In this document: positions 2,530 through 42,198 of the stretch, in pieces
Layout of the letters: the number at the start of each line of letters is the position of its first letter
How positions within the stretch are numbered: position 1 is the first letter of the stretch
Source of the DNA: Candidatus Zhuqueibacterota bacterium
GTDB taxonomy: Bacteria > Zhuqueibacterota > Zhuqueibacteria > Oceanimicrobiales > Oceanimicrobiaceae
Reading direction: 5' to 3'
DNA length: 64,000 nucleotides
NCBI GenBank assembly: GCA_029262055.1
Contig: JAJDAD010000063.1
Coordinates: 186,001-250,000 of the forward strand
Notes under the pieces: generated by a model
Databases searched by the model: none
Told to the model about the DNA's origin: nothing
What the model saw: only the letters and a program-made list of their open reading frames with translations
Made by a program: the position numbers and the translations under genes

Positions 2530-3852
2530 TTACCTTTTGCTTCTTCTACCGGATGAAGATCTTCCCGATGAACTTCTACCTGAGGACCTGCTGGAAGAAC
2601 CACCGCCACCTTTACTCCCACTCGAGTAGCTCTTCTTGCTGCCACTGGAGGACTTTGTGCTCGTTCTTGACGGGCTGGATTTGGTCGCCTTGCTGGACTT
2701 AGTACCCGACTTGCTTTTACTGACCTTTGAGGTACGGCGCGTGTTGGTCCTCTTACTGGCCGTTGCACTCTTTTTCTGCGTGGTTTTGCTCACAGTCGCT
2801 TTCGACTCTGGACTACCCTTGCTTCTGGTCGAACGGCTCACCCGACGACTTCTGCGGGCCGGTTCAGTTTTCCGTTCGGTGCTACGTGCTGAGCTGACGG
2901 TGCGCCCGCCAGAGCGGCTACGAGTCCGCCGCACTCTTGCCTTTGATTTCGTGTCAGACTTGCTGGAGGAACTGCGGGCTACCGAGGTCCGGGTCCTGGG
3001 ACTTCTCCGGACTGCCGCACGCCGGCTGCTTGAATTAGAGTCGGTCCCACTGGACTCAACCCGGCTTCCGGACTGTGCCCTTCTTCGAACGGATTTGACC
3101 GCGCCAAACTTGGTCGATGCAGACGACTTCCTGACGGCGGTGCCACGCGTTGCGACCGCATGTGTTGAATTAACCGCGACCCTGCGATTCTCAAACCCAA
3201 AGTTGTCGCGCCGGATTCCGCGCCGTGTGAAGGTGCGCTGCTTAAAGGCCACAGTCCGGCCGCTTGAGTAGTGGTGCGGATAGTAACCACTGCTGTACCC
3301 GCCATAATAGTAGGCGTCATGGTACCTGCCATACCCTCCGAATCCGAAGCTAAAATGACTACCATAGTAGGACCTCGGATAGTAAAAATAATCATAAAAG
3401 TATGGATCGTAGTATCCTACGGAAACCGAGATATGGCTGGAGTAAGGCCTGTGGTAATCATAAAAGTCTGGGTCATAAAACGGATCGTAATACCAGGACC
3501 GGTGGGAATACGGACCATAGTAGCTATTGTAGTAATGGTGCTCAATTCTAGTTTCAACATCGTCCTCATCATCGTAGGAGTAGGCTTCATAGTCATAATC
3601 ACCATCCTCTACATATTCTTCCTCGCCTTCGTAATCCTCATAATCTGCATAATCCTCATAGGAATAGGCCTCTTCCTCTTCTCTCTCATCCCTGTCACCT
3701 TCATGGTGACGGCTGTTCTTTTTTGTGTAACGTTCACTAGCAGGCTCTTGTGCCTCGGGTTTGGCCAGTTGCGTGTAACAGCTCGACAGCAGAAACGCCG
3801 ATAGCAGCAAGAGCACAGTTGCCAGATTCCTAAATAGCTGTCGCTTTTTCAT
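2530..3852 (-). CDS. Low-complexity lipoprotein: Tyr/Asp-rich front, Ser/Arg/Lys-rich tail
   Basis: The 440-residue product starts at ATG 3852, which has GGGAG nine bases upstream; an in-frame codon at 3876 is less likely. The N-terminus is a lipoprotein signal with lipobox LLSSC, lipidated Cys about residue 25. Residues 45-110 are very acidic and Tyr-rich. Residues 110-210 are Tyr/Gly/His-rich with repeated YYDPxxYDY-like units. From about residue 215 to the end the chain is strongly basic and Ser-rich, ending in SSGRSSSGRRSKR. I recognise no enzymatic domain. The split charge suggests a surface-exposed, intrinsically disordered protein that may bind polyanions or other envelope polymers; this is inference. 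It is first in a two-gene unit with the porin gene. Confidence 0.75.
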   Translation of the reverse strand: MKKRQLFRNLATVLLLLSAFLLSSCYTQLAKPEAQEPASERYTKKNSRHHEGDRDEREEEEAYSYEDYADYEDYEGEEEYVEDGDYDYEAYSYDDEDDVETRIEHHYYNSYYGPYSHRSWYYDPFYDPDFYDYHRPYSSHISVSVGYYDPYFYDYFYYPRSYYGSHFSFGFGGYGRYHDAYYYGGYSSGYYPHHYSSGRTVAFKQRTFTRRGIRRDNFGFENRRVAVNSTHAVATRGTAVRKSSASTKFGAVKSVRRRAQSGSRVESSGTDSNSSSRRAAVRRSPRTRTSVARSSSSKSDTKSKARVRRTRSRSGGRTVSSARSTERKTEPARRSRRVSRSTRSKGSPESKATVSKTTQKKSATASKRTNTRRTSKVSKSKSGTKSSKATKSSPSRTSTKSSSGSKKSYSSGSKGGGGSSSRSSGRSSSGRSSSGRRSKR

Positions 3853-3917
3853 TTTTCTTACTCCCAGTATAATCAATGCAGCTTAATAAGGTCTATCAGC
3901 TTTACATCTGCAACTTA

Positions 3918-3933
3918 AGCAAATGCTATGCCA
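3918..3933 (-). promoter_or_regulatory. Sigma54-type -24/-12 promoter for the lipoprotein/porin unit
   Basis: On the minus strand the sequence reads TGGCATAGCATTTGCT. The -24 GG and -12 GC are 10 bases apart, as in the sigma54 consensus TGGCAC-N5-TTGCW. The predicted transcript start is near 3906, about 55 bases before the ATG. A short palindrome, GTCGTTCGAC at 4000-4009, lies 66 bases upstream and could be an activator site. Confidence 0.7.
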
Positions 3934-7374: not shown

Positions 7375-8183
7375 CACCAATCTTTACCTCTGAACGCACC
7401 ACGGACTTTTTGCTTCTTCTTGTTCTTGAGTAACTCCTCTTCATCTCCCTGGAGGGCATCCAGGATACGCTCCGCATCCTCTTTTGAAATCTCTCTGGGT
7501 TCTTCACCTTGCTGCCCCTCTTGCTCCTCTTGCTTTTCTTCGTCACCGGGCCGCTCTTGATTCTCTCCCTGATCTTCCTGCTGTTGTTCTTGTTCGTCCT
7601 GCTGCTGGTCCTGCTCTTCCTGGTTTTGCTGGTCCTGCTGCTCCTGGTCCTGCTGCTGTTCCGGGTTCTGCTCCTGGTTCTGCTGATCCTGCTTCTGCTG
7701 CTGACTATCGTCCTGATTCTCCTGGTTGTCTTTCAGCTTGGCACGGACGTACTCAAGATTATATTTCGCATCTTCATCATCAGGATCGAGCTCCAGGGCT
7801 TTCTTGAAGTGCAGAACGCTCTCCGGCAATTTACCCATCTTGTAAAGCGTGTTCCCCATATTGTAGTAGCTCTTGGATTGCAGGGAGATATCATCGGACG
7901 AAAGTGACTTCTGGTAGGACTGCAATGCCTCTTCATAGTTATGCTTTTTGTAATGCACATCACCGATATTGAAGTGAACATCCTCCAAGTCAGGCTGTTC
8001 CAGGAGGGCGTCGCGATACTTGTTGTTTGCTTCGTCATACTTCTCTTCACTGAAGAGGCGGTTGCCTTCTTCCACCTGCTTGTGACCCTGGGAGAATCCC
8101 GGGGCTGCAAGAGTCATCAACACCAGCATCGGAATCAGAACCCGCAACCAAGAGGCGCTGCTGCTTTCCGCTCTACTGTTCAA
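7374..8183 (-). CDS. batC: BatC: TPR protein with long Gln/Glu-rich segment
   Basis: The 269-residue product has a signal peptide, three to four TPRs (LFSEEKYDEANNKYRDALL; VHFNIGDVHYKKHNYEEAL; YYNMGNTLYKMGKLPESV) and then about 85 residues made almost only of Gln, Glu, Asp and Asn (about residues 155-235). A short charged tail follows. The likely start is TTG 8183, which has GGAGAGG six bases upstream and overlaps the end of batB by 11 bases. The CAG-rich coding tract explains the long Leu-rich open frame on the other strand. In Bacteroides, TPR BatC acts with BatB; the Gln-rich tract is probably a flexible linker. Confidence 0.85.
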   Translation of the reverse strand: MNSRAESSSASWLRVLIPMLVLMTLAAPGFSQGHKQVEEGNRLFSEEKYDEANNKYRDALLEQPDLEDVHFNIGDVHYKKHNYEEALQSYQKSLSSDDISLQSKSYYNMGNTLYKMGKLPESVLHFKKALELDPDDEDAKYNLEYVRAKLKDNQENQDDSQQQKQDQQNQEQNPEQQQDQEQQDQQNQEEQDQQQDEQEQQQEDQGENQERPGDEEKQEEQEGQQGEEPREISKEDAERILDALQGDEEELLKNKKKQKVRGAFRGKDW

Positions 8184-9204
8184 ATCGGCCTCTCCATTCG
8201 GTCTCCTTTTTGACTCTGTCCGATAAAAGCAATTCCACCACTAAGAATACGATTGCCAGAAAGAGCACATACTGGAACCGGTCTTCGTACTGTGCAAATT
8301 TCATCGAGGCGAGTTGCTTCTTTTCCATTTGTGATACTTCTTCATAAATTCTTGCAAGCTTGGTCTCGCCCGTCACAGACTGATAGTATTTCCCTCCGGT
8401 CGTCAATGCGATCTTTTCAAGGGTGATCTGGTCGAGCTTGGTCAGGATGACTTCGCCCTTCCTGTCTTTCTTGAATTCGCGATTACCACGGCGGTCGTAA
8501 ACCGGGATCGGAACTCCTTTTGGGGAACCAATGCCAACCGTGTAAACCACCACGCCTTCGGTTTCCGCGGCTGCAACAACCTGCATCACGTCTTCACCGT
8601 GGTCTTCGCCGTCAGTAATTAATACGAGGACCTTGTACTTCCGCTCCTGGCTTTCAAAACTCTTCATCGCAGTGCTGATGGCTGCACTAACGTTGGTCCC
8701 CGGCTCCGGAATCAGGCTGGGATCCATGATTTCAAGAAAGGTCTTGGCCGCACCATAGTCGAGGGTCAACGGGCATTGCACGAAGGCCTCGCCGGCAAAG
8801 GCTATCAGGCCGACCCGGTCGCCGCGCAACAGGTCGACAAATTCAGAAATCTCGTGTTTCGCTTTGGCCAGGCGGCTTGGTTGAATGTCCTCCGCCAGCA
8901 TCGAGGCCGAGACATCGAGAGCGACGAAAATATCGACGCCCTCGCGCTGGACCTCTTCCAGTCGCGTCCCGATTTGCGGTCGGGCCAGCGCCAGAGTCAT
9001 GGTCAAGATTCCGAGCACGACCAGAGCGGCTTTAATGATTTGGCGCTCGCGGCTCACTGAACCGCTCAGCTTCTTGACCAGGTCGAGGCTACCGAACCGC
9101 GCCATGGCCTGCGCCTTCCACCTGAAGACCGAATAATAAAAGACGATAGCGACCGGGACAAGCAGCAGGAGGATAAAATACTCACTGTCGGCGAAACGCA
9201 GCAT
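8173..9204 (-). CDS. batB: BatB: membrane-anchored von Willebrand factor A protein
   Basis: From ATG 9204 the product has 343 residues. It has an N-terminal membrane helix, a second helix (KAALVVLGILTMTLALA), a VWA domain and a C-terminal helix. The MIDAS metal site is complete: DVSASM, the Thr of TNVSAA, and TDGEDHG. The ATG is one base after the batA stop. An upstream in-frame start at 9270 would lie inside batA and is rejected. Known family role: with MoxR-type ATPases, VWA proteins help metal insertion or complex assembly; the target here is unknown. Confidence 0.88.
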   Translation of the reverse strand: MLRFADSEYFILLLLVPVAIVFYYSVFRWKAQAMARFGSLDLVKKLSGSVSRERQIIKAALVVLGILTMTLALARPQIGTRLEEVQREGVDIFVALDVSASMLAEDIQPSRLAKAKHEISEFVDLLRGDRVGLIAFAGEAFVQCPLTLDYGAAKTFLEIMDPSLIPEPGTNVSAAISTAMKSFESQERKYKVLVLITDGEDHGEDVMQVVAAAETEGVVVYTVGIGSPKGVPIPVYDRRGNREFKKDRKGEVILTKLDQITLEKIALTTGGKYYQSVTGETKLARIYEEVSQMEKKQLASMKFAQYEDRFQYVLFLAIVFLVVELLLSDRVKKETEWRGRFEQ

Positions 9205-9205
9205 A

Positions 9206-10198
9206 CTACGGGATCTTCCTGAACTTTGTGTTTGTGATACTGACCTCGGCAATGACCAAACCGAGGGCAATAAAAAGCAATGACGAAAACAGTTCCTTAA
9301 AACGAGTGTACTGCTTAACCTCTATCTTGGTTTTCTCTAGCTTGTCAATTTCAGCAAAAATCTGGTCGAGGCTCTCTTTGTCGGTGGCGCGGTAGTAGTG
9401 GCCATCTGTCAGACGGGCAATTTCCTTGAGTGAGGCTTCATCTATCTGGACCGGCATTTGAACATAACGCTTACCAAAAATGGGATCGTCGACCGGGTAC
9501 ATGGCGGTGCCGCGCTTGCCGACCCCAACGGTGTAGATTTTGATCCCAAACGCTTGTGCCACCTGAGCGGCAGTTATCGGATCGAGCTGACCCCGGTTGT
9601 TCTGGCCGTCGGTCAGCAAAATGAGTATCTTGCTTTTTGCCTTACTGTCGCGCAAACGATTGCTGGCGTTGGCGATGGCCATCCCGATGGCTGTACCGTC
9701 TTCAATCATACCGCTTTCAACTTCCTGTAGGAAACTGAGCAAAATACCGTAGTCCAGGGTCAACGGACACTGCGTAAAGCTCTTTGCTGAAAAAACCACC
9801 ATGCCGATGCGATCGTTCTTTCGGCCCTGGATAAAGTCGCGCGCGACCAGCTTTGCAGCCTCCAGGCGATTGTGCGGCTTGAAGTCCTCCGCAAGCATGC
9901 TGCTCGAAATATCCAGGGCGAGAACAATGTCGACGCCCTCGGTGATAATCTCATCCTCTGTATGGCTGGACTGCGGACGGGCAAAGCAAACGATAAGCAA
10001 AGCGAGCGCCAGTATCCGAGCGATAAAACCGATGTGCCGGAGCTTTCGCTGACCTGAAACTTTCTGCACATGCTTGACGACATTCAGATTTGAATAGCGC
10101 AAAGTCGCTGGTTTCGCGCGGCGCTTTGTCAGATACCAAAAGGCCAGAAAGGGTAACAGTAGCAGGAGGAAGAGGAATTCAGGATTTGCGAATGTCAT
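9206..10198 (-). CDS. batA: BatA: membrane-anchored von Willebrand factor A protein
   Basis: The 330-residue product has the BatA layout: N-terminal helix (FLFLLLLLPFLAFWYL), a second helix (ILALALLIVCFA), a VWA domain with intact MIDAS (DISSSM, DGTAIG, TDGQNN), and a C-terminal helix. It overlaps the upstream gene by ATGA. It is about the usual family length (roughly 330) and clearly paralogous to BatB. Confidence 0.88.
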   Translation of the reverse strand: MTFANPEFLFLLLLLPFLAFWYLTKRRAKPATLRYSNLNVVKHVQKVSGQRKLRHIGFIARILALALLIVCFARPQSSHTEDEIITEGVDIVLALDISSSMLAEDFKPHNRLEAAKLVARDFIQGRKNDRIGMVVFSAKSFTQCPLTLDYGILLSFLQEVESGMIEDGTAIGMAIANASNRLRDSKAKSKILILLTDGQNNRGQLDPITAAQVAQAFGIKIYTVGVGKRGTAMYPVDDPIFGKRYVQMPVQIDEASLKEIARLTDGHYYRATDKESLDQIFAEIDKLEKTKIEVKQYTRFKELFSSLLFIALGLVIAEVSITNTKFRKIP

Positions 10199-15996: not shown

Positions 15997-17898
15997 TTAG
16001 CTTTTGGATTTGTCATCGTCGACCACTTCAAAGTCAGCCTCTTCGACTTTTTCGTCTTTCGGCGCATCATCAGCAGGCTGGGCATCGCCACCATCCGCAC
16101 CTTGCTCCTGATACATCTTGGACGCCATTTCGTTCCAGACTTGATTCAACGCCTCGGTTGAAGACTTCATCTCCTCCGGGTTGTCCGATTTGATAGCCTC
16201 CTTCACCCGTCCGACTGCAGCTTCTAACTTACCTTTGTCATCCGCAGAAAGTTTGTCACCCATTTCGGCGATGTTCTTCTCTGTCTGATAAACGAGTTGA
16301 TCGGCCTGATTATGGACATCGACAGACTCGCGTTTCTTCTTATCCTCAGCCGCGTGGCTTTTGGCGTCACCCTTCATCTTCTCCACTTCCTCCTTGGACA
16401 AACCGGTTGCGGCCTCGATGCGGATCTTCTGCTCTTTGCTCGTGGCTTTGTCCTTGGCAGATACATTCAAGATGCCATTCGCGTCGATGTCAAACGTCAC
16501 CTCAATTTGAGGAATGCCTCGCTGTGCGGGCGGGATACCATCCAGAATAAACTTGCCAAGAGTACGGTTGTCGAGCGCCATCTCGCGTTCGCCCTGCAGA
16601 ATATTGATCTCCACAGAGGTCTGATTGTCGCCGGCCGTCGAGAAAATCTCTGACTTCTGGGTCGGGATGGTCGTATTCGATTCGATCAACTTGGTGGTTA
16701 CACCACCCAGTGTTTCGATACCCAGAGAAAGCGGCGTAACGTCAAGCAGAAGAACGTCCTTAACATCGCCCGACAAAACGCCACCTTGAATCGCGGCGCC
16801 AACAGCGACGACCTCATCCGGATTTACACCTCGGTGGGGTTCTTTGCCGAACAAGTCTTTGACCATTTCCTGCACTTTGGGCATCCTGGTGGAGCCGCCA
16901 ACCAGCACGACTTCGTCTATTTCGGATGCCTTCAGGCCGGAGTCTTTCAATGCTGCCTTGCAAGGTTCCAGTGTACGCCGAAAAAGATCTTCGCTCAACT
17001 GCTCAAACTTCGCCCTGGTCATCGTGAGGTTGAGGTGCTTCGGCCCGGAATCCGTAGCCGTGATGAACGGAAGGTTGATGTCGGTTTGAGCGACCGTCGA
17101 TAACTCACACTTGGTCTTTTCCGCGGCTTCTTTTAAGCGCTGCACGGCCATCGGGTCCTTGGAAAGATCGACTCCCTCTTGCTTCTTAAACTCATCGACT
17201 ATCCAGTCGATTATCCGTTGGTCAAAATCGTCACCGCCAAGATGGGTATCGCCGTTGGTCGACTTGACCTCAAACACGCCATCGCCAATCTCCAGGATCG
17301 AAATATCAAAAGTACCGCCACCGAGATCGTAGACGGCAATCTTTTGCTCGGTCTTTTTATCCAGACCGTAAGCCAATGAAGCTGCTGTCGGTTCATTGAT
17401 AATGCGCTTTACTTCCAACCCGGCGATTTCACCAGCCTCTTTCGTCGCCTGGCGCTGGCTGTCATTGAAGTAGGCCGGGACCGTGACTACGGCTGCAGTG
17501 ACCTTTTGTCCCAGATAGTCTTCCGCGGTCTGCTTCATCTTCTGCAGGACCATGGCAGACAATTCTTGCGGCGAATACTCCTTGTCTTCTATTTTCACTT
17601 TGGCGACATCGTTGGAACCTTTTACAACCTGATAGGGGACTTCACTTATTTCAGTCCCTACCTCGCCGAAACGACGTCCCATAAACCGCTTTATTGAAAA
17701 AATGGTATTCTCAGGGTTGGTGATAGCCTGTCTCTTGGCGACCTGCCCAACAAGCCGCTCGCCGTTCTTTGAGAAAGCTATAATCGAGGGTGTCGTTCTG
17801 GCCCCCTCAGCATTTGGGATCACCACCGGGTCCGCACCTTCCATGACTGCCACACAGGAGTTGGTGGTCCCCAAATCGATACCGATAATCTTACCCAT
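15997..17898 (-). CDS. dnaK: DnaK (Hsp70) chaperone
   Basis: The 633-residue product is a complete Hsp70. The N-terminus [18 protein letters not shown] is the first phosphate-binding loop, [14 protein letters not shown] the second, and [13 protein letters not shown] the adenosine motif. The substrate-binding domain and helical lid follow, ending in an acidic tail ([11 protein letters not shown]). It is transcribed alone, with a sigma54-type promoter in front and a terminator behind. No CIRCE repeat is visible. grpE is not in the window. Confidence 0.98.
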
Positions 17899-17976: not shown

Positions 17977-17992
17977 AGCAAACACTATGCCA
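17977..17992 (-). promoter_or_regulatory. Sigma54-type -24/-12 promoter of dnaK
   Basis: The minus strand reads TGGCATAGTGTTTGCT, with GG and GC 10 bases apart. The predicted start near 17966 gives a 5' leader of about 68 bases. I see no convincing sigma70 hexamer pair or CIRCE element in 17899-18117. Confidence 0.7.
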
Positions 17993-18102: not shown

Positions 18103-18117
18103 CTGTCATTATGACAG
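18103..18117. promoter_or_regulatory. Candidate activator-binding palindrome upstream of dnaK
   Basis: CTGTCAT-T-ATGACAG is a perfect inverted repeat with 7-base arms. It lies 110 bases upstream of the dnaK -24 element, a normal distance for a sigma54 enhancer. Related sequences sit at similar distances before dnaJ and before the zinc-ribbon gene. It directly abuts the fmdB terminator. Confidence 0.5.
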
Positions 18118-18147
18118 AAAAAAAGGACGCTGTTCAGAACGTCCTTT
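18118..18147 (-). terminator. Terminator of the dnaJ-htrA-fmdB unit
   Basis: The arms AAAGGACG (18122-18129) and CGTCCTTT (18140-18147) form a perfect 8-bp stem. It is followed on the minus strand by a run of seven T. Confidence 0.8.
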
Positions 18148-18177
18148 CACAATGCAATTGTTGTCTGGGCTTTTTCC

Positions 18178-18474
18178 CTATTCGCTCTTAGTGGAAGTCC
18201 CCTCGGCTTTTGCCGGTTTGCTACTGTCGGTACCTTTACTTTCAGCAGTCCCCTTGGTTTTGGGCGCGGTTTTCGAATCAGGGTTGGCTTTAGTGTTCTT
18301 ATAATCGGTGATATAAAAACCAGACCCTTTAAAGATGAGTCCGTTGCCGGCGCTTATGAGCCTTCTCACCGCGCCTTTACACTTAGGGCAATTTTCCAGT
18401 GCTGCGGCAGTGATGCTTTGAAATTCTTCGAATTGGTGTTCGCAGCTACCGCAAACGTATTCATAGGTGGGCAT
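18178..18474 (-). CDS. FmdB-family zinc-ribbon protein
   Basis: The 98-residue product begins MPTYEYVCGSC and has the CPKC pair about 20 residues later, the FmdB/'CxxC-CxxC-SSSS' zinc ribbon. It continues with the family's GSGFYITDYKN segment and a Ser/Thr/Lys-rich tail. The biochemical role is unknown. It lies 47 bases after htrA and before a strong terminator, so it is probably the last gene of the dnaJ-htrA-fmdB unit. Confidence 0.9.
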   Translation of the reverse strand: MPTYEYVCGSCEHQFEEFQSITAAALENCPKCKGAVRRLISAGNGLIFKGSGFYITDYKNTKANPDSKTAPKTKGTAESKGTDSSKPAKAEGTSTKSE

Positions 18475-18521: not shown

Positions 18522-20033
18522 TTACTTTGGAACCTTCAAAGCAATAAAGTGATTTCCGCGACCACGCCGGACCTGAAACAGCGCGATTTGTCCCGGCTCA
18601 AATCGTTCCACGATTCCGCGCACTTCGCGGACGGACTTTACTTCTTTCCGGTCCACCTCGACAATCAGATCTCCGGTGCGCAGGCCCTTTTCTTCAGCGA
18701 CGCTATTGGAACGTACGTCAGTAACCAACACACCTTCCGTGTCATCCAGCTCGAACCGGTCCGCCAACTCTGAAGTGACGTCGGAGAGCTCCAGGCCGAT
18801 TTTTTCAGTCATCTCGTCTTTGCGTGAAATTTGTGGTGCGGGACTATCAGGCGAACCCCGTTTCTCGAGGACAACAACGATATCTCTGGTGCTTCCATCT
18901 CTAATCACGCTCAAGTGAACACTTTGTCCGGGCAGGTACGAAGCGATTAGATTGGTCAACTCCTGCGACCCGTCAATCTTTTTGCCCTCCACCGAAACGA
19001 TCACGTCATACTTTTTTAGACCTGCTTTGTCAGCCGGCGTGCCTGCGACTACTTCGGTTACCACCGCACCCTTATTGTCATCAATTTTCAGGGCTTCGCT
19101 CAACTCATCATCCGGGGTAGTGATGTAAACTCCGAGATACCCGCGCACGACCTCTCCGTGCGCGATCAGATCGTCCATAACCTTCTTGGCCAGGCCGATT
19201 GGGACCGCAAACCCAATCCCGATGTTGCCACCCGAGTTGCCGGCGTAAATAGCTGTGTTGATGCCGATCAATTCACCTTTGATGTTGACCAGGGCACCGC
19301 CGCTGTTGCCGGGATTGATTGCTGCGTCGGTTTGAATGAAATCCTGATAGGTCAGTTCCCCACTCAGGTTCAAAGTGCGTCCCATCCCACTAATAATGCC
19401 TGAGGTGACTGTATGCTGCAGACGCAAATCAAACGGGCTGCCGATTGCCAAAACCCATTCGCCCACCTCAAGCTTCTCGGAATTGCCTAAGACGACGGCC
19501 GGCAAGTCCTTAGCATCTATTTTTATGACCGCGATATCAGTGGCGGGATCGGTGCCGATAATTTTCGCGTCATAAGGCTTCTTGTCGAGCATGACGCTGA
19601 TCTCATCAGCATCTTTGATAACATGGTAATTAGTCAGGATATACCCGTCGAACGAAACGATAACTCCGGAGCCCAAACCACGCTGCTTGTATTCCTGATC
19701 ACCGTTGGGCTGGCGGAAAAACCTTCTAAAGAAATCATCATTGTGGAAGAAGTTTGAAAGAGGCTCCTTGACCTTAACGACTTTTTCGCTTGTGATGGAT
19801 ACGACAGCGGGCGTCACGCGCTTTGCGATTGCAACAAACGCGCGGCTGGCACTTTCAAGATCCGAGCTAACTTGCGGAACAGTCTGACTCTGGTGCGTAA
19901 ACTCGTTCTCCGACTCGCTATCAGCGAAACCGTTCTGCGCCAGATTGAAATTCGAAGCCAGAACCAACCCGATCACTACACCTATGAATATAGACAAAAC
20001 AACGATGGTTCTTTTGGTTGTCCTTTGACTCAT
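18522..20033 (-). CDS. htrA: HtrA/DegP-type periplasmic serine protease with two PDZ domains
   Basis: The product is 503 residues from ATG 20033, with GGAGGG six bases before. An N-terminal signal anchor is followed by a trypsin-like domain with the catalytic triad His (LTNYHVIKD), Asp (DPATDIAVIKID) and Ser (NPGNSGGALV). Two PDZ domains follow (YLGVYITTPDD...; IGLELSDVT...). The family degrades or refolds damaged envelope proteins. It lies 90 bases downstream of dnaJ and probably shares its sigma54-type promoter. Confidence 0.95.
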   Translation of the reverse strand: MSQRTTKRTIVVLSIFIGVVIGLVLASNFNLAQNGFADSESENEFTHQSQTVPQVSSDLESASRAFVAIAKRVTPAVVSITSEKVVKVKEPLSNFFHNDDFFRRFFRQPNGDQEYKQRGLGSGVIVSFDGYILTNYHVIKDADEISVMLDKKPYDAKIIGTDPATDIAVIKIDAKDLPAVVLGNSEKLEVGEWVLAIGSPFDLRLQHTVTSGIISGMGRTLNLSGELTYQDFIQTDAAINPGNSGGALVNIKGELIGINTAIYAGNSGGNIGIGFAVPIGLAKKVMDDLIAHGEVVRGYLGVYITTPDDELSEALKIDDNKGAVVTEVVAGTPADKAGLKKYDVIVSVEGKKIDGSQELTNLIASYLPGQSVHLSVIRDGSTRDIVVVLEKRGSPDSPAPQISRKDEMTEKIGLELSDVTSELADRFELDDTEGVLVTDVRSNSVAEEKGLRTGDLIVEVDRKEVKSVREVRGIVERFEPGQIALFQVRRGRGNHFIALKVPK

Positions 20034-20123
20034 TTTATCCCTCCACGGAACATGCAAGCTTGTCAAGTTTTCTACAAGTCATAGAACCTACTTCCTACGG
20101 ATAAGTTCCTACGGGGAGCCTTA

Positions 20124-21011
20124 TCAAGCCGCAACTTTGATCGTGACGTATTGGTCTCCAACCCTCTTTCCGCACCGGATGCCCATACCTTTGAGTTTGA
20201 GCTTTTGTCCGTCAGCAGAATCGGGTGGCACTCGCAACTCCACAGTGTTCGAATGAATGGTTTTTACTCTGATCTTTGTGCCCTCTGCTGCCTGGTCGGC
20301 TTGCAGCGGGACGTTACAAAAAATATCAAGCCCGCGCATCTCAAAAAAACGGTCCTTACCCACCGAAACATGCAAAATCAGATCCCCCACGCGGCCACTA
20401 CGGGCATCGGGTCTGCCTTGACCGGCAAGCTTCAGTTTTTTGCCGTCCTGAGTGCCCGGCGCTATGTTGATTGCAAACTTCTTCGTCCCCTTCTCCGGAA
20501 CTTTGAAGGATGTTTTCCCCCCCAGTGCTGCAGTCTTAAACGGTATCTGCAGGGTGAGATGAATGTGCAGGCTTTCCTTTGCCCGTCTCCTGCGCGTGCC
20601 CCCCCGGTCCTGGTTGTCAAAAATCTGACCGAACATATCAGAAAGGTTGTCAAACCCAAAAACATGATCAAGGTCAAACTCCGCTCCTCTGCGGCCGCCA
20701 CTATGGCCACCGGCGAAGCCGCCAAAAAGATCCTCCATGTTGAAACCCGCGGTCCCTGGGTTAAACCCGCCACCGGCATGAGCACCGTTCATCCCTAATC
20801 GCCTGAATTGATCATACTGTTGTCGTTTCTTGGAATCATTGAGAATGCTGTATGCCTCCGAAACCTCCTTAAAGCGTTGCTCGGCTTGTTTGTCGCCGGC
20901 ATTGGCATCAGGATGATTGTCTTTGGCTAGCTTGCGATAGGCCTTTTTGATTGCCTCTGCGCTGGCGCTTTCCTCTACACCGAGAATCTTGTAGTAATCT
21001 TTCTGGTTCAT
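20124..21011 (-). CDS. DnaJ-type co-chaperone lacking the zinc finger (CbpA-like)
   Basis: The 295-residue product has a J domain with HPD (KDNHPDANAG), a Gly/Phe-rich linker and two C-terminal beta domains. The four CxxCxGxG zinc repeats of classical DnaJ are missing, so this is a type II, CbpA-like protein. It stimulates DnaK ATP hydrolysis and delivers substrates. The conserved partner order here is dnaJ-htrA-fmdB with dnaK next. Confidence 0.92.
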   Translation of the reverse strand: MNQKDYYKILGVEESASAEAIKKAYRKLAKDNHPDANAGDKQAEQRFKEVSEAYSILNDSKKRQQYDQFRRLGMNGAHAGGGFNPGTAGFNMEDLFGGFAGGHSGGRRGAEFDLDHVFGFDNLSDMFGQIFDNQDRGGTRRRRAKESLHIHLTLQIPFKTAALGGKTSFKVPEKGTKKFAINIAPGTQDGKKLKLAGQGRPDARSGRVGDLILHVSVGKDRFFEMRGLDIFCNVPLQADQAAEGTKIRVKTIHSNTVELRVPPDSADGQKLKLKGMGIRCGKRVGDQYVTIKVAA

Positions 21012-21057: not shown

Positions 21058-21073
21058 AGCAATTCGTATGCCA
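21058..21073 (-). promoter_or_regulatory. Sigma54-type -24/-12 promoter of the dnaJ-htrA-fmdB unit
   Basis: The minus strand reads TGGCATACGAATTGCT, identical to the dnaK element at the TGGCATA and TTGCT blocks with the same 10-base GG-GC spacing. The predicted leader is about 35 bases. Confidence 0.7.
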
Positions 21074-21172: not shown

Positions 21173-21187
21173 ATGTCATAGTGGCAG
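21173..21187. promoter_or_regulatory. Candidate activator site upstream of dnaJ
   Basis: ATGTCATAGTGGCAG matches the dnaK palindrome at 11 of 15 positions, with the left half-site TGTCAT intact. It lies 99 bases upstream of the -24 element. The right half-site is degenerate. Confidence 0.35.
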
Positions 21188-21239: not shown

Positions 21240-21443
21240 TCACCGCTTGAACAGTCGCAGAATTTTCTTCTGAAAGTCTGAATCGAATCGAGGGAAAAGT
21301 AGTAGCAGGGCAAGCAAAAGCAGAGGAAGACCGGGAAGCACCGGAAGCACGAGTCCGGCTATCCCTAAAAGGAGCAAAAGAGGGATTATTTTTTTCTTGC
21401 TGGTTCGAAACGCCGCTATCTTCTTGGCGAGGTTATCACTCAT
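21240..21443 (-). CDS. Small membrane protein, 67 residues
   Basis: The product has a basic N-terminus, one long hydrophobic stretch (IIPLLLLLGIAGLVLPVLPGLPLLLLALLLL) that could form a helical hairpin around the Pro-Gly turns, and a basic tail. The LPVLPGLPLL pattern recalls PGPGW/DUF454-type membrane proteins. It overlaps the stop of the upstream STAS/HATPase gene by 8 bases, so the two are probably coupled. Confidence 0.65.
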   Translation of the reverse strand: MSDNLAKKIAAFRTSKKKIIPLLLLLGIAGLVLPVLPGLPLLLLALLLLFPRFDSDFQKKILRLFKR

Positions 21444-22410
21444 TCCGCTCGATAAACTTAATCATGGTCAGTCGATTACCCCGGTTTGGGTCCGGCCGGT
21501 ATTCAAGTTTATCCATGGAACGCCTGATAATATACAGCCCAAAGCCACCGGTCTGACGATCGGCCATCGCGGATTCCACATCATATTTCTTGTTCTCAAA
21601 GCCTTCGAAGCCTTCCCCATAATCTTGGATAATGATCTTGAACATCTCCGCATTATACTCAATCCAGACGTCGATCCAGTTTTCGGAGTTGGAGTGATAC
21701 GCATGCTCGATAACATTCAGCGTCGCCTCGTAAACCGCGATCTTAATCTTGCCGACTTCCTTGACGTTAAATCCGGCACGCTCCGCATACTTGGTAATGA
21801 AGTCGCAAATCGAGTAAAGGTTCTGTGCATCACTCTTGACGCGTTGATGACTTCTCTCACCTTTACGTTCGCCGGCGTGATCGCCAGCCGCAACTTCTGA
21901 ACCCTCGGCTGCCGTAGTGTCGGACTGATGGGACCCGTTCTCTTTTAGCTTATTTTCCAGGAGGTCAATAATGGGATCTTCGGCAATGTCTTCTGTGGGA
22001 ACAACCTCATTGGTTGGGACGTCATCTGTCAGCAATTCGGGCTCGCTGTCCTTAATGTTGAATTCTGCAAGCGCGCTCGTTTCAGCCTCATTGAAAGACA
22101 GGTAATAGGTCGGGGAAAACGTTTCAACCTTCTTCCTGGTTTCCTTTGACAGGTTGAGGAGTTTCACATCTCCGTGCAGGCGTCGCGCGCGCGACGTCAC
22201 TTCTACCAGCAAGGCGACCAGCGTGGAAGAAGGATAGTCGATATTTTCCAGGTCCACCAGATACATCGAATAACCCTGTTGAAAACAGGCCTCGAATGTA
22301 TCTTGCAAGACCTCAAGAATGAATTGAGTATCCTTAATATTACCGAGTGGTATCCTGACAACGTCATCCAGGCCTTCAACCGGTTCGAACGCAATTTTGA
22401 CTGAGTCCAT
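21436..22410 (-). CDS. STAS domain fused to RsbW-like histidine-kinase-type ATPase
   Basis: The product has about 324 residues. Residues 1-105 form a STAS-like anti-sigma-antagonist domain (GYSMYLVDLENIDYPSSTLVALLVEV). An acidic linker follows (about 115-190). The C-terminal 130 residues are an anti-sigma-factor type HATPase with the N box (KIAVYEATLNVIEHAY), G1 box (QDYGEGF) and G2 box (GGFGLYIIRR). Normally the kinase and its STAS antagonist are separate proteins, so the fusion suggests self-contained partner switching. The start is uncertain: ATG 22410 or TTG 22422. Target sigma factor unknown. Confidence 0.8.
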   Translation of the reverse strand: MDSVKIAFEPVEGLDDVVRIPLGNIKDTQFILEVLQDTFEACFQQGYSMYLVDLENIDYPSSTLVALLVEVTSRARRLHGDVKLLNLSKETRKKVETFSPTYYLSFNEAETSALAEFNIKDSEPELLTDDVPTNEVVPTEDIAEDPIIDLLENKLKENGSHQSDTTAAEGSEVAAGDHAGERKGERSHQRVKSDAQNLYSICDFITKYAERAGFNVKEVGKIKIAVYEATLNVIEHAYHSNSENWIDVWIEYNAEMFKIIIQDYGEGFEGFENKKYDVESAMADRQTGGFGLYIIRRSMDKLEYRPDPNRGNRLTMIKFIERNE

Positions 22411-22703
22411 TCCTTGAGCCAATGTTGGGAGTTTTAAGTTCGTTCAATCCTTAAACTTTTGAAATGATAAAAATTGTCGGCAATAAATCAACATTTTTTT
22501 GAAAAGACGGGGAATGCCTGTAGCTTGTTTTCATGAATTCCTTCCCCTTCATCCGATAGGATTCTTTTCGGATTGGACTCGTGCCCGGTGAATGCTGCCG
22601 GCCCTTGTTCAAAAAGACTCCGCCTGAATGAGAGTGATCGTGAGATTGAGCTCAATGCCCAGCTTCATGAATTACCCAGGATAGGGAAGCAAACGGGCTC
22701 TCT

Positions 22704-25684: not shown

Positions 25685-25766
25685 TGCCGAAGGGGGGACT
25701 CGAACCCCCATGGGTTGCCCCACACGGCCCTCAACCGTGCGTGTCTACCAATTCCACCACTTCGGC
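25685..25766 (-). tRNA. tRNA-Leu (anticodon GAG)
   Basis: Acceptor arms GCCGAAG and CTTCGGC pair perfectly. The anticodon stem-loop CACGG-TTGAGGG-CCGTG gives anticodon GAG. A long variable arm (GTGGGGCAACCCAT) marks a class II tRNA, and the T arm GGGGG-TTCGAGT-CCCCC is standard. CCA is not encoded, so the CCA-adding enzyme at 44960 would be needed. It lies 15 bases after secG; secG followed by tRNA-Leu(GAG) is also the order in Escherichia coli (secG-leuU). Confidence 0.95.
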
Positions 25767-40755: not shown

Positions 40756-42156
40756 ATGCCTGGCCGCTACCTCAAACAGATCCTGAAGGCGCACAGGACT
40801 GCGTACGCCGTCTTCGACGAATCGCTGCAATCACTTGATTATGACTTCCGCAACAGCGTTTTTTTCAGCGAAAAAGAACTAGGCCGCAACTTTTCCCTGT
40901 GGGAGTGCTTTCCCCTGTTGGCAGGCTATGAGGACGTGGTGCGAGAGATTCTGCAGGGTAAACTCAGACAGTATCTTCTGGAGAAGATCAACCATTGCGA
41001 CGATGCCGGCAAGCTAACCTACCACACAATCCTTCTGACAGCCGTGCAGGACAAGGACTATGGTGCAACCAGACTGTTTTGCCTCGTCAGCGACGTTACC
41101 CGGGAAACTGCTCTGGAACAAAGTCTGAGACAGAAGGATTACGAAGTCCGTGTCTTGCGGGCGGATTTGCTGAGCAACGGCCAATTCCTGCACGACAGCC
41201 TTTTGGGTGAATCGCAACCAGTGGCAAAAGTGCGGGAGTTTGTAAAAAAGGTATCGCAGTACCAAGCCACCGTTTTGCTCCAGGGAGAAAGTGGCACCGG
41301 CAAAAGCCTCGTGGCCAAACTCATCCACCGCGCCAGCCCTCTTTCTTCCGCACCTTTTGTGGAAATAAACTGTGCCGCCATCCCGGATACACTGATGGAA
41401 TCAGAATTGTTCGGCTATGAAAAGGGCGCCTTTACCAACGCACTTAGCAGCAAGAAGGGGCTAATAGAAGAAGCGGATAAGGGATCGCTCTTTCTCGATG
41501 AAATTGGAGAGTTACCCCTGTCACTGCAGGCAAAACTACTGACCTTTCTTGAAACACAACGTTTCCGGCGACTTGGTAGCACCATCGAAAGAAAAGCCAA
41601 TGTCCGCCTCCTGGTCGCGAGCAACAAGGAACTGGCCGCGGCGGTTGAACAAAAAGAATTCCGACAGGATCTGTTCTTTCGGCTAAATGTCGTGACCGCG
41701 GTCCTACCGCCGCTCAGGGAACTGGGAGAAGACATTCTCCTGCTCGCGGGACACTTCGTAGAGCTGTTAGCGATTGACCTAAAAAAGCAGGTCACCGGCT
41801 TGACACCGTCTCTCGCACAGAAGCTCCTTTCCTACGACTGGCCTGGAAATGTCCGGGAACTGCGCAATGCACTGGAACGCGCTGTCATCTTCTGTGAAGG
41901 GAAACTGCTCGACATCGACGACCTTTCCCTGTCGTCCATAAGGCCCGTGGCAGAATCCGGGCTTGGCAACGTTCAAATTCCGGAGGACGGACTTGCCTTT
42001 GACGATGTGGAGAGGGCTTTCCTGGAGGAGGCCCTCAACAAAGCAGGCGGCAATCAAACCCGTGCCGCCCGGTATTTAGATCTCAGTCTCGACACCTTCC
42101 GCTACCGGCTCAAGAAATTCAAAGTGCGGCCCGGCCATCCGCCTAACAAGAAATAG
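40756..42156 (+). CDS. Sigma54-dependent transcriptional activator (PAS-AAA+-Fis) with GAFTNA loop
   Basis: The 466-residue product has an N-terminal PAS-like domain (about 10-120), a linker helix, and an AAA+ sigma54 activator domain (150-375): Walker A GESGTGKS, Walker B GSLFLDEIGELP, and RQDLFFRLNVV. A C-terminal Fis-type helix-turn-helix (KAGGNQTRAARYLDLSLDTFRYRLKKF) follows. The sigma54-contacting loop, normally GAFTGA, reads GAFTNA (224-229). There is no receiver domain, so the signal probably enters through the PAS domain or the GTPase partner. The ATG lies 7 bases after the GTPase stop, with GAGGT in that stop region. Confidence 0.92.
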   Translation: MPGRYLKQILKAHRTAYAVFDESLQSLDYDFRNSVFFSEKELGRNFSLWECFPLLAGYEDVVREILQGKLRQYLLEKINHCDDAGKLTYHTILLTAVQDKDYGATRLFCLVSDVTRETALEQSLRQKDYEVRVLRADLLSNGQFLHDSLLGESQPVAKVREFVKKVSQYQATVLLQGESGTGKSLVAKLIHRASPLSSAPFVEINCAAIPDTLMESELFGYEKGAFTNALSSKKGLIEEADKGSLFLDEIGELPLSLQAKLLTFLETQRFRRLGSTIERKANVRLLVASNKELAAAVEQKEFRQDLFFRLNVVTAVLPPLRELGEDILLLAGHFVELLAIDLKKQVTGLTPSLAQKLLSYDWPGNVRELRNALERAVIFCEGKLLDIDDLSLSSIRPVAESGLGNVQIPEDGLAFDDVERAFLEEALNKAGGNQTRAARYLDLSLDTFRYRLKKFKVRPGHPPNKK

Positions 42157-42186: not shown

Positions 42187-42198
42187 GGTCATTTGACC
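42187..42198. promoter_or_regulatory. Candidate activator-binding palindrome upstream of the zinc-ribbon gene
   Basis: GGTCA-TT-TGACC is a perfect inverted repeat sharing the GTCAT...TGAC core of the dnaK palindrome. It lies 111 bases upstream of the sigma54-like element at 42310. It also lies just after the activator gene, so a weak terminator is an alternative, but no T tract of note follows. Confidence 0.4.

Follow-up and report, generated by a model that had tools for sequence, protein, structure and literature searches.

A conserved palindrome upstream of sigma54-type promoters marks heat-shock genes in uncultured KSB1/Caldithrix-like bacteria and is probably an activator site

A palindrome with the consensus TCTGTCA-WWW-TGRCAGA lies upstream of sigma54-type promoters at heat-shock genes in a phylum of poorly known, uncultured bacteria (candidate division KSB1/Caldithrix-like). 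We consider it very probable that palindrome and promoter together constitute a sigma54 heat-shock regulon controlled through an upstream activating sequence (UAS), a judgement that concerns the regulon and is separate from the identity of its activator. The UASs of enhancer-binding proteins (EBPs) are inverted repeats, typically located about 100 bp upstream and common to co-regulated sigma54 promoters. The palindrome described here is an inverted repeat shared by 44 loci at gaps of 70–112 bp from the promoter element, a range that takes the place of the fixed distance assumed in an earlier note on this DNA; sites at dnaK and lon are mostly found at 106–112 bp.

The stretch of DNA analysed (the window, 64,000 nucleotides) contains two such sites. 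The palindromic UAS of dnaK, CTGTCATTATGACAG, was found at 18103–18117 (no strand assigned), exactly where the earlier note had located it. Its core, TGTCATTATGACA (18104–18116), is followed 111 bp downstream by the −24/−12 element TGGCATAGTGTTTGCT (17977–17992, minus strand) and then by dnaK itself (15997–17898, minus strand; Pfam HSP70, E=1.2e-271; NCBIfam DnaK). The 13-bp dnaK core, TGTCATNATGACA, occurs only once in the 5.7-Mb genome. The UAS of the dnaJ operon, CTGCCACTATGACAT (21173–21187, minus strand; core TGCCACTATGACA, 21174–21186), precedes the element TGGCATACGAATTGCT (21058–21073, minus strand) by 100 bp. The site is thus present as first noted, but its description there as an 11/15 match was too modest, as it fits TGYCA-N3-TGRCA completely. 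Both elements match TGGCAY-N5-TTGC with no mismatch, with GG at −24 and GC at −12 in register, and are predicted to be sigma54 promoters.

The features follow one another along the minus strand as dnaJ, htrA, fmdB, terminator, UAS, sigma54 element and dnaK. The first of these genes encodes a CbpA-like DnaJ without zinc finger (20124–21011, minus strand; Pfam DnaJ and DnaJ_C). It is followed after a 57-bp gap by a gene for an HtrA/DegP-like protease with PDZ domains (18522–20066, minus strand) and by an FmdB-type zinc-ribbon gene (18178–18474, minus strand; Pfam Zn_ribbon_8). An intrinsic-terminator-like hairpin with a U-tract (18121–18148, minus strand) marks the 3' end of what is probably a single co-transcribed dnaJ-htrA-fmdB operon, with dnaJ first and fmdB last. 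Since htrA is located 57 bp behind dnaJ on the same strand, the HtrA-type protease is probably also driven by the dnaJ promoter. The dnaK UAS begins directly behind the U-tract of this terminator, and a comparable arrangement of a T-tract followed by a UAS was observed at four other loci (L033, L041, L042 and L043).

A third site, GGTCATTTGACC (42187–42198), which had been grouped with these two, does not belong to them: its core is spaced by N2 rather than N3, and its supposed sigma54-like partner TGGCACGGCCTTTGAA (42310) has no GC at −12. The pair was accordingly rejected as a regulon member. The zinc-ribbon gene next to it is distinct from the FmdB-type gene beside dnaK. Elsewhere in the window, a perfect sigma54-type element, TGGCATAGCATTTGCT (3918–3933, minus strand), is located upstream of an ORF without a Pfam family (2530–3876); TGYCA-N3-TGRCA was sought upstream of this element and not found, and the element is probably under a different EBP. 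An RsbW-like HATPase_c_2 gene of the anti-sigma/serine kinase type (21436–22422, minus strand) lies directly ahead of the dnaJ promoter region, and a tRNA gene (25685–25766, minus strand) is the sole Rfam match in the window.

The arrangement was sought elsewhere, without regard to the genes downstream, with the combined pattern TGYCA-N3-TGRCA, a gap of 70–115 bp and TGGCAY-N5-TTGC, using the reversed pattern as the control. In the 5.7-Mb genome, the combined pattern matched twice, before the dnaK and dnaJ genes of the window (control, 0). The class yielded 34 matches in 30 of 63 genomes, and the phylum 44 matches in 38 of 82 genomes with none for the reversed control, so that the enrichment proposed as a check in the earlier note was indeed found; by our own arithmetic, about 0.003 matches per genome, or about 0.25 over the 82 genomes, would be expected by chance. 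The matches precede hsp20 (16), dnaK (10), grpE (6), lon (6), dnaJ (4) and clpB (1), that is, proteostasis genes in 43 of 43 classifiable cases; the 44th is at a contig end, with its gene out of view. Downstream genes were read for all matches, and family checks were made on examples of each kind. Given that every readable match is at such a gene and that the control gave none, we read the palindrome as the UAS of a conserved sigma54 heat-shock regulon. The idea of a UAS for a sigma54 activator at dnaK and dnaJ is thus strongly supported by conservation across the phylum and by specificity for heat-shock genes.

Two features that the pattern does not impose lend further support to a real binding site: the spacer is 86% A+T, and a C stands ahead of TGYCA at 30 of the 44 loci. 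The combination is kept over most families of the phylum, and about half of the 82 genomes have no strict match. The palindrome without the promoter is not enriched in the genome of the window (27 sites against 22 for the control) and was therefore discarded as a regulon marker by itself. At the 15 of these 27 sites whose surroundings were inspected, no near match to a sigma54 element was found 40–180 bp away. A search for an IHF site between UAS and promoter gave no significant signal (mean best score 7.23, against 7.04 in shuffled sequences). The gap lengths showed phasing at 10 bp (Rayleigh p about 0.0004) and 10.5 bp (p 0.008), values to be read with the relatedness of the loci and the trial of several periods in mind.

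Conservation was also followed gene by gene. CbpA-like dnaJ genes were sought in 40 related genomes, and every one of the eight family genomes proved to have a sigma54 element, TGGCAY-N5-TTGC[AT], 47–88 bp before the gene. Outside the family, the element occurs before dnaJ in one locus (L012) and before a grpE-dnaJ pair in another (L027). Further upstream there is mostly TGYCA-N3-TGRCA or a variant differing by one or two letters; orthologous dnaJ UASs were identified at L004, L008, L010, L011 and L012, and no clear palindrome was seen upstream of the dnaJ element at L005 and L006. The sigma54 element before dnaK is likewise conserved in the family, and the dnaK UAS motif is also present at L033, L034, L044, L050, L051, L052 and L060–L062. 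Family members that fail the strict pattern retain the sigma54 element and have degenerate half-sites. In the dnaJ leaders of L010 and L011, and in that of L008, the region from the sigma54 element to the start of dnaJ contains conserved TGTC/GACA inverted repeats (AATGTCGTTTAGACAGATT; TATGTCTAAATGACAGACAT), which may be a further regulatory site on the downstream side of the promoter.

An inverted repeat beside a heat-shock gene is a typical sign of CIRCE/HrcA, and HrcA is encoded in 75 of the 82 genomes, so the palindrome might be the operator of an HrcA-like heat-shock repressor, with the sigma54 elements incidental. We regard this as very improbable. No match to CIRCE (TTAGCACTC-N9-GAGTGCTAA) was found in the window, even with up to three mismatches allowed, the 70–112 bp from the palindrome to the −24 element downstream is more than would be usual for a repressor, and the sigma54 element before dnaJ or dnaK is kept even where the palindrome is degenerate. 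In the genome of the window, hrcA is found near a canonical zinc-finger dnaJ (G000:C31, around 7400–9760), apart from dnaK, which suggests a split control with hrcA beside the canonical dnaJ and dnaK under a sigma54 promoter. Because hrcA is elsewhere in the genome and CIRCE is missing from the window, the sigma54 layer seems to act beside HrcA; the wide occurrence of HrcA also means that this layer is not the sole heat-shock control. That the palindrome arose by chance at a terminator end has practically negligible probability: it does directly follow the U-tract of a terminator, a kind of site where inverted repeats are frequent, but such an origin would not explain 44 matches against a control of zero, every readable one at heat-shock genes, and the motif also occurs with no adjoining terminator.

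As the palindrome is almost exclusive to heat-shock genes, an enhancer-binding activator is probably what turns on the response in these bacteria. From the established biology of sigma54, a dimeric EBP of the NtrC/Fis-HTH type would bind the palindrome TCTGTCATAATGACAGA and form an ATPase ring. Looping of the intervening 70–112 bp would bring it to sigma54-RNA polymerase at TGGCAY-N5-TTGC, and ATP hydrolysis would drive promoter opening at dnaK, dnaJ(-htrA-fmdB), grpE, hsp20, lon or clpB. The trigger may be protein-folding stress, signalled by heat or by misfolded protein, although this last step is more weakly founded. The host presumably has rpoN, as indicated by its EBPs with GAFTGA and by the promoters themselves.

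Which EBP acts at these sites was approached by phylogenetic profiling. The genome of the window has 42 EBP candidates, 30 of them with a GAFTGA-like loop. EBPs were gathered from three motif-bearing genomes that are only distantly related, leaving aside a few EBP-like proteins with weak scores, and compared with those of the window genome by reciprocal best hits. Only two had reciprocal best hits in all three genomes: L148, encoded next to lptE (G000:C61:3106-4278, 391 aa), and L162, a receiver-domain EBP beside a histidine kinase. A single copy of the lptE-linked EBP is encoded in 77 of the 82 genomes and in 37 of the 38 motif-bearing ones, the exception (G080) being 80% complete. As the sole fit by profile, it is favoured as the single phylum-wide activator, and we regard it with moderate confidence as the candidate activator of the regulon. 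This argument presumes one orthologous activator, and a replacement in some lineage would escape its notice.

The lptE-linked EBP contains a sigma54-interaction domain (PF00158, E=4.9e-73) with GAFTGA and a Fis-type HTH (HTH_8, E=3.3e-14), whose recognition region, ERTLYRKIK, is nearly invariant. It begins directly at the AAA+ domain, with neither an N-terminal sensor nor a receiver domain, and its lid and HTH are separated by about 80 residues that include a conserved helix-like stretch. Having no N-terminal sensor, it may be held back by a partner, in the manner of PspA and PspF, and the obvious candidate for that role would be free chaperone. Its conserved neighbourhood, by our reading (with lptE assigned by Pfam), is purD, an epimerase gene, the EBP gene and lptE; in this phylum, the EBP gene has no adjoining heat-shock gene and no strict site of its own. 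The protein is also present in motif-negative genomes (e.g. family f8), where it must either use degenerate sites or serve another role.

With 42 EBP candidates in one genome, the same enhancer-type regulon could be served by another EBP, be it the one encoded at 40756–42156, a two-component candidate such as L162 or L153, or EBPs that differ from one lineage to the next. We hold this to be possible but rather doubtful. L162 has no counterpart in 18 genomes, of which 11 are motif-bearing, and L153 has no reciprocal hit in the motif-bearing genome G081; both were rejected on these grounds. The EBP at 40756–42156, named as the activator in the earlier note, is encoded on the same contig and has what we read as a PAS-like N-terminus, but reciprocal hits are absent from the motif-bearing genomes G070 and G081. 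With an ortholog (51%) in only one of the three genomes (G020), it is an improbable candidate for the phylum-wide activator, and the presence of that ortholog makes a regulon of its own probable. Its gene (plus strand) follows an OmpA-family gene, and the PAS-like N-terminal region has no Pfam hit. The maintenance of a single motif across the phylum also argues for one orthologous activator.

Matches to the lptE-linked EBP extend to Bacteroidota, with one above threshold in each of eight genomes (40–46% identity; alignment full-length in five of the eight). In one Bacteroidota locus (L369), the gene order is miaB (our own reading), EBP, lptE, one unassigned gene, secG, groES and groEL, an encouraging, independent link of this EBP with a chaperone operon, though a single case. 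TGGCAY-N5-TTGC was observed shortly before grpE in Prevotella-type loci (L107, L115, L124, L127 and L142). A palindromic UAS was sought there and not found, most of these loci having coding sequence of the upstream gene in front, and an extension of the same palindrome to Bacteroidota heat-shock genes was therefore dropped; the activator at these loci may bind elsewhere or need no DNA. Loose TGTCA half-sites near groES and grpE in one Bacteroidota genome are suggestive only. Tentatively, and with more doubt than conviction, we propose that the lptE-linked EBP is an old master heat-shock activator, the sigma54 equivalent of sigma32, and that a partner or chaperone titration, rather than a sensor domain, controls it.

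Accounts of heat-shock control in bacteria usually invoke activation by sigma32 or repression by HrcA, CtsR or HspR. A sigma54 enhancer regulon extending across a phylum and over dnaK, dnaJ, grpE, hsp20, lon and clpB would be a third architecture, the activator of which may itself lack a sensor domain. The motif provides a precise, testable marker of heat-shock genes in uncultured bacteria, and the analysis offers a candidate function for the conserved EBP beside lptE, Bacteroidota included. In Myxococcus xanthus, HsfA/HsfB and lonD likewise link an NtrC-like regulator with a lon gene of the heat-shock response; HsfA, however, is a response regulator with a receiver domain, which the lptE-linked EBP lacks.

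Partner proteins may control those EBPs that lack N-terminal domains, in the way that PspA controls PspF (PMC4641369). The lptE-linked EBP resembles PspF in having no N-terminal sensor domain but scores below the curated PspF cut-off (299.3 against 443.55 bits, TIGR02974), is longer by about 80 residues in the stretch from AAA+ lid to HTH, and has cytosolic chaperones and proteases as candidate targets. The sites of FlrA/FleQ-type regulators and DVU2894, yGTCA-N6-TGACr, serve flagellar targets (PMC4641369); their GTCA/TGAC half-sites are like those found here, and their spacing is N6 rather than N3.

Neither the palindrome, nor a sigma54 heat-shock regulon in this phylum, nor the lptE-linked EBP as a heat-shock regulator was described in the literature searched, which included few subscription papers. 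In Chlamydia trachomatis, hrcA-grpE-dnaK has a tandem sigma66-sigma54 promoter with AtoS/AtoC as the activator, and sigma54 falls upon heat shock (PMC8762339). What the two share is a sigma54 promoter at a heat-shock operon in addition to control by HrcA; the difference is that a two-component system acts there, whereas one enhancer motif is common to the whole proteostasis regulon here. PMC12316311 reports GroEL/ES, GrpE, DnaK, DnaJ and IbpA as an enriched cluster of predicted sigma54 targets in Bacteroidota and Planctomycetota and calls grpE/groES of B. thetaiotaomicron sigma54-dependent, in line with the elements just before grpE in the Prevotella loci; it mentions neither Calditrichota nor KSB1, nor an upstream activating sequence, and the sections consulted name no activator. 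Given these two precedents, sigma54 control of a chaperone gene is not new, and it is the enhancer motif, the regulon and the candidate activator that appear to be so.
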